Shown here piece by piece: positions 27,453 through 30,562 of a stretch of DNA of 64,000 nucleotides. Each line of letters opens with the position of its first letter. Position 1 is the stretch's first letter. The stretch covers positions 3,286,001 through 3,350,000 of the forward strand of contig NZ_CP117877.1 in the NCBI RefSeq assembly GCF_028736115.1, read 5' to 3'. The translations under genes were made by a program, and so were the position numbers. Below the pieces are notes generated by a model. The model did not search any database, had not been told where the DNA came from, and saw nothing but the letters and a program-made list of their open reading frames with translations. The DNA comes from Mucilaginibacter sp. KACC 22063 (GTDB lineage Bacteria > Bacteroidota > Bacteroidia > Sphingobacteriales > Sphingobacteriaceae).

Positions 27453-27929
27453 ATGAAAAAGCTATTGATAATCAGGCATGCTAAAGCAGCACATGAGACC
27501 GAAAGCGGCGATTTTGCAAGGCCTTTGAAACACTCGGGTGAAAAAGACGCGAAACACCTGGCCAAAAAGCTGGAAAAGAAAGAAATTGTACCTGATAAAA
27601 TATACTCAAGTGATGCCTTAAGGGCTAAAACAACTGCCGAAATTATTGCTGACAAACTTGAACTTGCTGCTCCGGAACTGATCCATGACGTTTATGAAGC
27701 ATCGCAGGAAACCCTTGCCCGCATTGTAAGCAACTTTCCGGATGGTTACAACTTTTTAGCACTTGCAGGGCACAATCCCGGCTTAAGCTACCTGTTGACC
27801 TATTTAACAGGACAGTACTGCAATCTTGATACCAGCGGTGCTGCGCTGATTGAGCTTGATATTCACAGCTGGCAAATGGCCGCTTCCGATACAGGCAAGC
27901 TTAGCTGGTATTACGAGGCGGAAGATTAA
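27453..27929 (+). CDS. SixA-type histidine phosphatase
   Basis: A 158-residue histidine phosphatase superfamily protein. The catalytic RHAK is in LLIIRHAKAAHE (His 10), the acidic/His partner lies in LAGHNPGLS, and the middle shows the S-D-A-L-R-A-K-T pattern typical of SixA. SixA removes phosphate from phospho-histidine proteins; a distinct small-molecule substrate is also possible. It closes the polX-rfaE operon and overlaps convergent dprA by 4 bases. Confidence 0.88.
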   Translation: MKKLLIIRHAKAAHETESGDFARPLKHSGEKDAKHLAKKLEKKEIVPDKIYSSDALRAKTTAEIIADKLELAAPELIHDVYEASQETLARIVSNFPDGYNFLALAGHNPGLSYLLTYLTGQYCNLDTSGAALIELDIHSWQMAASDTGKLSWYYEAED

Positions 27930-29023
27930 TTAAGCGCATAGGTTTTACCAGGCATTGAGCGTATAAAGCCCTGCATTTCAAGATTGAGCAGATTCATGGT
28001 AAGCTGGCTTACAGGCATACCTACTTTCAAGGTCAGCTCGTCAATAGCAATACCGGCATCTGACCGTAAAATTTCCATTATTTGCCGCTCTTCGCTGCTT
28101 AAATCCATAGCTAATGATAACTGGCTTGGTTTTGCCACTGCTGCATCAGGCTTATCCCAGCCCATTAAATAGGCAACATCTGCCGCACAAGTAAGCAGGC
28201 TGGCCTTATGGTTGCGGATCAGAAAATTACAACCTTCAGAAAACTCATCATTTATGCGACCTGGAAACGCAAATACGTCACGATTATAAGAGTTAGCTAT
28301 TTCTGCTGTAATGAGCGTACCGCTCTTTATATTGGCCTCTATTACAATGGTAGCATCGGCAATACCGGCTACTATCCTATTCCTCGAAGGAAAATTCTCC
28401 CTATCTGGTATCACACCTGATGGATATTCAGTTAAAATGCCGCCATTTAGCAGCATCTTCTCTGCTGTACCCTTGTTCACTGCGGGATAGATCTGCTGTA
28501 GCCCATGCCCCAACACGCCAACGGTTTGCATATTATGTTTAAGCGCTTCTTTATGTGCAGCCACGTCAATGCCATGTGCTAATCCGCTTACTACCAAAAC
28601 ACCGTACTGGCTTAGTTCCTCTATTAAGTCGCGACAGAGCTGTTTACCGTACTCTGTAGGCTGCCTGGTACCAATTACACTGACTATACGCGGGTGGTTA
28701 AGATCCATTTTCCCTTTGGCGTACAGCAATACCGGGGCATCATGGCAAGCTTTAAGGCGTTTAGGATAAGCAGGATCGCTGTAAAACAGCACATCGATGT
28801 TATGCTTTTCAATAAATCCGATCTCTTCTTCAGCCCGTTTTAATGCGGCTTCAAAATCAAAAGCTTCTAAACGCTTAGGACCTATCCCAGGTACCCTGTC
28901 GAGCCGTTTAGGTACCATAGAGAACACATTTTCGGCACTGCCAGCATAAGCCAGCATAGACTTTGCAAGCACCGGTCCGGCATTTTTAATAAAGCTAAGG
29001 GCTATTTTATGGATAAGGGACAT
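27926..29023 (-). CDS. dprA: DNA processing protein DprA (Smf)
   Basis: Loads RecA onto incoming single-stranded DNA during natural transformation. The 365-residue protein has an N-terminal helix-hairpin-helix-like part (PGIGPKRLEAF), the Rossmann core with VSGLAHGIDVAAH, FPSRNRIVAGI and KSGTLITAEIA, and a C-terminal winged helix (DELTLKVGMPVSQLTMNLLNLE). Residue order and length are normal. The gene is transcribed towards the polX operon and starts next to the AT-rich region before the BlaI gene. Confidence 0.95.
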   Translation of the reverse strand: MSLIHKIALSFIKNAGPVLAKSMLAYAGSAENVFSMVPKRLDRVPGIGPKRLEAFDFEAALKRAEEEIGFIEKHNIDVLFYSDPAYPKRLKACHDAPVLLYAKGKMDLNHPRIVSVIGTRQPTEYGKQLCRDLIEELSQYGVLVVSGLAHGIDVAAHKEALKHNMQTVGVLGHGLQQIYPAVNKGTAEKMLLNGGILTEYPSGVIPDRENFPSRNRIVAGIADATIVIEANIKSGTLITAEIANSYNRDVFAFPGRINDEFSEGCNFLIRNHKASLLTCAADVAYLMGWDKPDAAVAKPSQLSLAMDLSSEERQIMEILRSDAGIAIDELTLKVGMPVSQLTMNLLNLEMQGFIRSMPGKTYALN

Positions 29024-29091
29024 AAGGCTTCTAAAATACAGCTATAATTAAAAAAGCCAATGCTATATCGCCTTAATATTTTCAGCTATAC

Positions 29092-29118
29092 AGCGCTTAA
29101 CCCCTACACTTAAGCGCT
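29092..29118. repeat. Perfect inverted repeat AGCGCTTAA-N9-TTAAGCGCT
   Basis: Nine-base arms, each containing the palindrome AGCGCT, are separated by 9 bases. It lies 74 bases upstream of dprA and 155 before the operator array. The rest of the 385-base gene-free stretch 29024-29408 is AT-rich apart from that array. Confidence 0.5.
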
Positions 29119-29272
29119 AATAACATAGTATTAAGGGCAAATAATCTATTTAACATAATGTTATTTAACCATATTCAAATAACTGTTTTTAGCATTTAAA
29201 TGAAGTTAATAAGCGATGTTGAAGCCAAAACTACAACAAGCCCTTATAAATCAATCATTTAAATAGAAGTAA

Positions 29273-29381
29273 ACTATAAAAATAGTAGACAAACTATGAA
29301 AATAGTAGCATTTTGCACCCTTCGAACTATAACAATAGTAGACGAACTACTAAAATAGTTATGTTAAACTATAGAAATAGT
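29273..29381. promoter_or_regulatory. Array of five ACTAT-N4-ATAGT palindromes (candidate BlaI-type operators)
   Basis: Palindromes start at 29273, 29293, 29326, 29346 and 29368, each 14 bases long. Four are perfect 5-base half-site pairs; the fourth has ACTAC in its left half. Start-to-start spacings are 20, 33, 20 and 22 bases, so sites 1-2 and 3-5 sit on nearly the same DNA face. The last overlaps where the -33 element of the following promoter should be. Autoregulation by the downstream repressor is inferred. Confidence 0.75.
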
Positions 29382-29395
29382 TGGGTATTTTAGGC

Positions 29396-29403
29396 TATTT
29401 TTG
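29396..29403 (+). promoter_or_regulatory. TAnnTTTG -7 box of the BlaI-type gene
   Basis: Perfect match TATTTTTG, ending 5 bases before the ATG at 29409, so a leaderless transcript is expected. It lies directly after the last palindrome. Confidence 0.65.
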
Positions 29404-29408
29404 CTTAA

Positions 29409-29858
29409 ATGAAAGAGCTAACTAAAGCTGAAGAGCAGGTAATGCAGATCCTCTGGCAGATTAAAGAGGGCATTGTAAAGGATGTATTGGCCCAAATGCC
29501 CGATCCTAAGCCTGCATACAACACCGTATCAACGGTTGTAAGAGTAATGGAGACCAAAGGCTTTCTCGGACACAAGGCTTATGGCAATTCGCATGTATAC
29601 TACCCGCTTATCAGCGAGCCGGAATACAAGAAATTCGCTTATGAAAAGCTGTTGAATGGTTATTTTAAGGGGTCAGTAAAGGAATTGATGGCTTACCTGG
29701 TTAAAGACAAGCAGATCAGCCTTAATGATATTGCTGAGCTGGTCGCCTCTCTCCCAGGCAACTCAGTTAAAGAATTTATTGCCTACATGGCACGCGAAAA
29801 GAAACTGGATGTTACTGATTTGGCAGAACTGATTTTACTTTCACAGAAAGGAAAGTAA
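29409..29858 (+). CDS. BlaI/MecI-family repressor with duplicated C-terminal module
   Basis: A 149-residue winged-helix regulator. Residues 1-75 show the BlaI pattern (LTKAEEQVMQILWQ; AYNTVSTVVRVMETKGFL; SHVYYPLIS). BlaI/MecI proteins are usually about 120-130 residues and end with one dimerisation module. Here the module occurs twice: residues 88-117 (GSVKELMAYLVKDKQISLND...) and 118-147 (NSVKEFIAYMAREKKLDVTD...), in exact 30-residue register. No BlaR1-type sensor protease, beta-lactamase or copper gene is adjacent; rsmG follows on the other strand. Five palindromes and a -7 box precede it, so autorepression is likely. The regulated system may lie elsewhere. Confidence 0.9.
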   Translation: MKELTKAEEQVMQILWQIKEGIVKDVLAQMPDPKPAYNTVSTVVRVMETKGFLGHKAYGNSHVYYPLISEPEYKKFAYEKLLNGYFKGSVKELMAYLVKDKQISLNDIAELVASLPGNSVKEFIAYMAREKKLDVTDLAELILLSQKGK

Positions 29859-29932
29859 TAAAATCAATATTTAAACTTTAAGTAGAGATAAGGATTGTAA
29901 CAATTTATAAAAAAGATCATTAGCTTAATAAG

Positions 29933-30562
29933 CTATTGTGCCTTAACGTAGATAACCTGCTTGGTATCAAAAAATTCACCGTCGAAATAGTCTTTCAGAT
30001 AGTATCGCTCTACCCTAAGTTTTGATTCGGCGATCTCCTGATCCAGGTCGCCGCCCTTTAAATACAAAATACCGCTGGGCAGCTTATTTTTAGATTGCTT
30101 GTTAAACTTATCTTTCACCCAGGGATAGAAGTCCTTAAGCTGTGTTACCGCGCGAGAAACCACAAAATCAAACTTACCCGGTACTTCTTCTGCCCTTTTA
30201 TGTTCGGCGCGAAGATTTTTAAGTTCCAGTGCTTTGGCCACTTCCTGCACTACTTTTATCTTTTTACCAATCGAATCCACCAACAGAAAATTGGTTTCAG
30301 GAAAAAGAATGGCCAGTGGTACGCCTGGAAAGCCGCCCCCTGTACCTACATCCAGTACAGTTTCGCCCGGTAAAAAGCCCATCACCTTGGCAATACCTAA
30401 CGAGTGCAGCACATGGCGCTCATAGAGCTGATCGATATCTTTTCTGGAAATTACATTGATCTGGCTGTTCCACTCTTCGTACAAACCTTGAAGTTTATCA
30501 AATTGCTGGCGTTGTTCAGGTGTTATCTCAGGAAAATATTGCTCTATCAGATCAGCGTTCAT
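29933..30562 (-). CDS. rsmG: 16S rRNA (guanine527-N7)-methyltransferase RsmG
   Basis: SAM-dependent methylation of 16S rRNA G527. The 209-residue protein shows the SAM site VLDVGTGGGFPGVPLAILFP, the upstream YEEWNSQINVISRKD and RHVLHSLG, and the VVSRAVTQLKDFYPW catalytic region. Length is normal. Its start overlaps the sigma factor gene by 11 bases, making it the third gene of a GT2-sigma-rsmG unit. Confidence 0.95.
   Translation of the reverse strand: MNADLIEQYFPEITPEQRQQFDKLQGLYEEWNSQINVISRKDIDQLYERHVLHSLGIAKVMGFLPGETVLDVGTGGGFPGVPLAILFPETNFLLVDSIGKKIKVVQEVAKALELKNLRAEHKRAEEVPGKFDFVVSRAVTQLKDFYPWVKDKFNKQSKNKLPSGILYLKGGDLDQEIAESKLRVERYYLKDYFDGEFFDTKQVIYVKAQ

Follow-up and report, generated by a model that had tools for sequence, protein, structure and literature searches.

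A BlaI/MecI-family repressor with a tandemly duplicated C-terminal hairpin in one Mucilaginibacter species, at a locus without the M56 protease gene

BlaI and MecI are repressors that bind DNA dyads as dimers and, in the classical systems, are inactivated by a membrane M56 protease, which cuts the dimer domain (PMC9834060; PMC3305447). BlaR1 of S. aureus cleaves BlaI at N101-F102 (PMC9834060), and BlaI/MecI reportedly come off DNA in response to a peptidoglycan dipeptide (PMC3305447). Members of the family usually have ∼120–126 aa and one C-terminal module, a usual rather than a strictly defining trait; the protein described here, encoded in the window (the whole 64-kb stretch of DNA that was analysed), has 149 aa and two such modules, and it lacks the adjacent M56 gene of the BlaI-BlaR1 two-gene arrangement, all three M56 genes in this genome lying at other loci.

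A BlaI/MecI-family repressor with two C-terminal modules

By ORF listing, the blaI-like gene starts with an ATG at 29409 and comprises 149 codons, its stop ending at 29858. The gene and its parts are as follows.

29409..29858, + strand: blaI-like gene encoding a 149-aa orphan repressor with two C-terminal modules (ORF; PF03965, 107.1 bits; MecI/BlaI the best solved relatives by sequence and fold)
29409..29669, + strand: residues 1–87, winged-helix DNA-binding domain and helix alpha4 (70–85) (Pfam match; AlphaFold pLDDT 80–97)
29670..29759, + strand: module copy 1, residues 88–117, in the usual position with diverged sequence; predicted helices 90–99 and 105–113, SLPG turn at the end (alignment, module scoring, AlphaFold)
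29760..29849, + strand: module copy 2, residues 118–147, nearest to the orthologs' ordinary C-terminus; predicted helices 118–130 and 135–147 (alignment, searches, AlphaFold)

The Pfam model Penicillinase_R (PF03965), with a curated cut-off of 22.6 bits, matched residues 4–115 on profile positions 1–113, and a comparison with the PDB placed MecI and BlaI best among the solved relatives, matched over residues 3–112. The sequence places the 149-aa protein in the BlaI/MecI family, and the BlaI-type repressor named in an earlier sequence-only reading of this DNA is thereby upheld by the Pfam score and by MecI and BlaI leading both the sequence and the fold matches. The TIGR02698 model of CopY/TcrY gave 52.5 bits, under its family cut-off of 121.95, and the translation of the 149-aa repressor contains no cysteine, so the C-terminal CopY-type cysteine motif is absent; identity as a CopY/TcrY copper repressor was rejected on both grounds.

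The same reading had proposed that residues 88–117 and 118–147 match without gaps, and this was borne out: 11/30 residues and 47/90 nucleotides are identical, the ungapped BLOSUM62 score of copy 1 against copy 2 is 61 compared with a shuffle mean of −20 (z ∼7), none of 200,000 shuffles scored as high, and when the whole protein is compared with itself the top-scoring windows all lie at a 30-residue offset. Both copies are, in addition, recognised on their own, copy 1 by the end of the Penicillinase_R match, which falls there in register, and copy 2 by its match to the normal C-terminus of the nearest orthologs (59–70% identity, E ∼1e-9). The tandem duplication is thus confirmed as genuine. Because the DNA of the two copies is only 52% identical, the duplication is neither recent nor an assembly artefact, and both assembly error and recent slippage were ruled out. 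Of the further statement that BlaI and MecI have one such module for dimerisation, the count stood, each normal member having one copy; as a refinement, the duplicated unit is the alpha5–alpha6 hairpin and so only part of the dimerisation domain, with alpha4 present once.

Rarity, origin and predicted structure of the second module

When a 70-residue query covering both copies was searched against 150 genomes of the genus and 395 of the class, no genome but the window's own spanned both copies without a stop, and the few weaker matches reaching into copy 2 pass through a stop codon. A family-model search over all fetched loci yielded 139 distinct family proteins, a sample of Bacteroidota only that takes in 20 relatives picked for long reading frames; an extra module was found in one of the 139, the window's, whose tail runs 26 residues past the family model as against at most 3 in the other 138. 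A common length variant was also rejected: none of the 20 relatives with stop-to-stop frames of 144–184 aa is longer behind the module, the excess being N-terminal. Counting homologue lengths and modules, which the sequence-only reading had put forward as a check, therefore showed that the long two-module form is not common in this Bacteroidota sample, and literature searches for duplicated BlaI modules, or for BlaI in Mucilaginibacter, found nothing. The duplication, known from a single sequence, is a real change restricted to one Mucilaginibacter species and absent from every relative examined.

Scored against 64 distinct modules from relatives, copy 2 exceeded copy 1 in all but one case. 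Its best partner is the M. straminoryzae module NSVKDLVTYLAKEGKLDITDLAELILLSQK (22/30), and that of copy 1 is the module of G016 and L015, from the same clade (14/30 identities), with paralog modules scoring lower, which ruled out that a module was borrowed from a paralog. Since the best-scoring partners of both copies come from their own clade, the two copies most likely derive from this gene after its clade had split off; copy 2 thus most likely retained the old sequence, and copy 1, which occupies the original position after alpha4, changed more. In the FastTree phylogeny the window gene is sister to the one-module M. straminoryzae gene (support 0.88).

Structure prediction recovered the family fold, the N-terminal winged helix and the C-terminal helical dimer domain being matched with one hairpin extra (AlphaFold and Foldseek). 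Foldseek returned 13 matches at E ≤0.001 with MecI and BlaI on top (target TM-score ∼0.68–0.79), most alignments having 112–117 columns, equivalent to the first module only, and one BlaI entry 131 columns with a worse rmsd. In the AlphaFold model the pLDDT is 80–97 up to about residue 90, 54–75 past it and 54–68 over residues 101–149; the input alignment was almost empty over copy 2, which may account for part of this drop. The single-module ortholog used as a control was modelled with helices at 70–86, 90–99 and 105–119 and a pLDDT of 75–87 (75–84 at the C-terminus). Copy 2 is hence predicted, at low confidence, to be helical rather than disordered, so that the question of disorder raised by the sequence-only reading receives a qualified answer, helices being predicted but at the low pLDDT of this region.

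These features bear on whether the extra copy is simply a tolerated, near-neutral C-terminal extension, with copy 2, for example, domain-swapped into the old dimer place of copy 1. The restriction to one species would fit such an extension, as would the divergence of copy 1, in which the leucine conserved at position 27 of the module is gone and whose alpha6 is shorter in the model than in the control (105–113 versus 105–119). However, copy 1 keeps nearly every hydrophobic position of the family, and that both copies stay in frame and preserve almost all of the hydrophobic pattern at only 11/30 identical residues suggests continued constraint; we regard a near-neutral extension as possible though doubtful.

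Operator array and loss of the M56 gene

Five candidate dyads of the form ACTAT-N4-ATAGT lie 5′ of the gene, located by pattern search and comparison of 18 loci (eight without and ten with M56).

29273..29286, unstranded: candidate operator 1, ACTATAAAAATAGT
29293..29306, unstranded: candidate operator 2, ACTATGAAAATAGT
29326..29339, unstranded: candidate operator 3, ACTATAACAATAGT
29346..29359, unstranded: candidate operator 4, ACTACTAAAATAGT
29368..29381, unstranded: candidate operator 5, ACTATAGAAATAGT

Dyad operators in the own promoter, as expected in this family, are accordingly present, five in number and kept in all 18 clade loci at identical offsets of 0/20/53/73/95 bp, with 44–50 of the 50 half-site bases matching and the four central bases variable; retention at orphan loci (47–50/50) is at least as high as at M56-paired loci (44–48/50). 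Across 16 genomes, tandem pairs with 20-bp spacing and at most one mismatch were confined to this promoter, the reversed control giving 0 in 15 of the 16. Within the own genome, allowing three mismatches produced only poor extra tandem-pair matches, fewer than the control and none of them resembling the array, and single operator-like sites stayed below the reversed-pattern control count. A wider regulon was rejected on these counts, and the operator searches of the own genome and the 16-genome set found no target besides the own promoter. Because tandem operator pairs in the 16 genomes occur at the own promoter only, the protein is most likely a dedicated autorepressor.

The operator spacings of 20, 33, 20 and 22 bp are near whole DNA turns, the 95 bp amounting to about nine turns, and would put dimers on one DNA face. 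Together with the prediction of a folded second module located past the ordinary dimer domain, this would suit a second module that joins neighbouring dimers into tetramers or filaments along the five operators and makes repression more cooperative. The array does not require a second module, however, because single-module species have the same array at the same spacing, and such dimer-linking appears unlikely; that the hairpin duplication created a new oligomeric state, making the protein a higher-order assembler by which dimers are joined on the five-operator array, seems decidedly unlikely.

Several other features of the promoter region were observed. Other blaI–M56 promoters of Mucilaginibacter have three such operators, and it looks as though one operator pair was duplicated to give five. 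The paralogous BlaI–M56 loci L157, L145 and L147 carry different upstream dyads, TACGA...TCGTA, so the different paralogs of a genome appear to be served by operators of their own. The sequence TATTTTTG at 29396–29403, 5 bp before the ATG, is similar to the −7 element of Bacteroidota, TAnnTTTG, and is found again in several orphan relatives; this may point to a leaderless transcript, and inspection by eye found no matching −33 element at the usual distance. The dprA–blaI intergenic stretch 29024–29272 is long, and throughout the genus the two genes keep their divergent orientation. No Rfam family was found in the 64-kb window.

Most Mucilaginibacter loci examined have the order dprA(−), blaI(+), M56 protease(+), rsmG(−), of which the window retains the following around blaI.

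27926..29023, − strand: dprA, conserved divergent neighbour (ORF; synteny in relatives)
29859..29932, unstranded: blaI–rsmG gap, site of the M56 protease gene in most related genomes (synteny; tblastn)
29933..30562, − strand: rsmG, conserved convergent neighbour (ORF; synteny in relatives)

The spacing from blaI to rsmG is 74 bp, and tblastn with M56 relatives found no M56 remnant in this gap; the absence of an adjacent BlaR1 protease gene, remarked earlier from the letters, is thus supported by both ORFs and tblastn. An intact M56 gene is likewise missing at L043, L044, L124–L128, L130 and L131. In L126 the blaI–rsmG gap holds a fragment like the C-terminal part of M56 (E 2e-12), and a similar fragment with a weaker match is found in L124; because such fragments persist, loss of M56 is indicated rather than late gain. 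In a FastTree phylogeny of BlaI plus DprA, the orphan pair L044/L130 clusters with the M56-bearing L046/L129 (support 0.994), and L131 stands apart with a weakly supported placement, which points to losses of M56 at this locus in at least two lineages and probably to a third.

All orphan orthologs other than the window's are single-module repressors, and the absence of the protease is therefore independent of the duplication and a trait of several lineages; the lack of a protease does not call for a second module, nor does it account for one. The window genome contains three M56 genes and, counting the orphan, four BlaI-family genes; each M56 gene adjoins one of the three remaining BlaI genes, among them a paralog 59% identical to the window BlaI. 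Because these three M56 genes persist elsewhere, cleavage of the orphan repressor in trans is possible. Given the repeated losses, the orphaned single-module orthologs and the remaining M56 genes, the claim that induction must work differently at this locus could not be sustained.

With such proteases left, one of them beside the close paralog, the second copy might also alter proteolytic control, a cut in copy 2 leaving a full one-module repressor and hence more resistance to M56. In the alignment the S. aureus cleavage site falls on Y96-L97 of copy 1, the equivalent in copy 2 being Y126-M127. Copy 1 could nevertheless be cut as well, and the N-F pair is missing from the M56-paired Mucilaginibacter orthologs too; we consider altered proteolysis very unlikely. 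A further reading, in which the second module is a ligand-binding site and the orphan repressor has become a one-component sensor, could draw on the reported release of BlaI/MecI from DNA by a peptidoglycan dipeptide (PMC3305447); it is highly improbable for a protein with no cysteines and no CopY-like metal motif, whose single-module orthologs are orphaned just the same.

Proposed mechanism and comparison with known systems

We consider it moderately probable that the observations are jointly explained by an autorepressor acting on five operators that lost its M56 partner, then duplicated its hairpin and so gained a longer dimer interface. BlaI/MecI-type dimers would bind the five upstream operators and silence their own promoter. 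The sequences themselves establish the family, the duplication and its rarity, the operator array and the loss of the protease; DNA binding and autorepression are what we infer from the family and the operators, and the longer dimer is likewise an inference. The adjacent M56 gene, the usual partner at the locus, would have been deleted in an ancestor, and the terminal 90 bp of blaI would thereafter have been tandemly duplicated in this species' lineage. Each subunit would then consist of alpha4 followed by two alpha5–alpha6 hairpins, and the extra hairpin would probably lengthen the dimer interface and tighten it.

The locus offers a natural experiment, in which the dimer domain is one hairpin longer and many single-module orthologs share the same locus and operators; comparison with them could directly measure the effect of extra interface on repression. 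It also indicates that BlaI-type repressors can persist once the protease is lost, which at this one locus happened at least twice and probably three times, with operator spacing kept exact. The orphaned autoregulatory locus is evidently maintained, and the persistence of an orphan repressor raises the question of its purpose.

Compared with the described and related systems, the single-module orphan orthologs (M. straminoryzae L043; G016, G120, G129, G178 and G187) resemble the window in locus, operator array and spacing, have no complete adjacent M56 gene and share ∼70% identity with the window protein over the first 112 residues, but have 120 aa and one C-terminal module instead of two. The M56-paired orthologs (e.g. 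M. lacusdianchii L046) have the same locus and operator array and differ in their single module and in the M56 metalloprotease gene that follows immediately 3′. MecI and BlaI of S. aureus (PDB 1okr, 1sd6, 1sd4 and 1xsd), ∼25% identical to the window protein, share the winged helix and C-terminal helices, whereas they have one module, MecR1/BlaR1 in the operon and the N-F site. The B. licheniformis BlaI, a dimer on several operators that controls its own operon too (PMC3305447), is like the proposed autorepressor in this respect and differs in its three operators (OP1–OP3), its beta-lactamase target, its BlaR1 partner and its single module. CopY/TcrY have a related N-terminal domain, as the sub-threshold TIGR02698 match reflects, but carry a cysteine metal motif that the cysteine-free window protein lacks. 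The two-module repressor is an elaboration of a well-known protein family and no new kind of system: the BlaI/MecI family itself is known, and what is new is the species-restricted tandem duplication.
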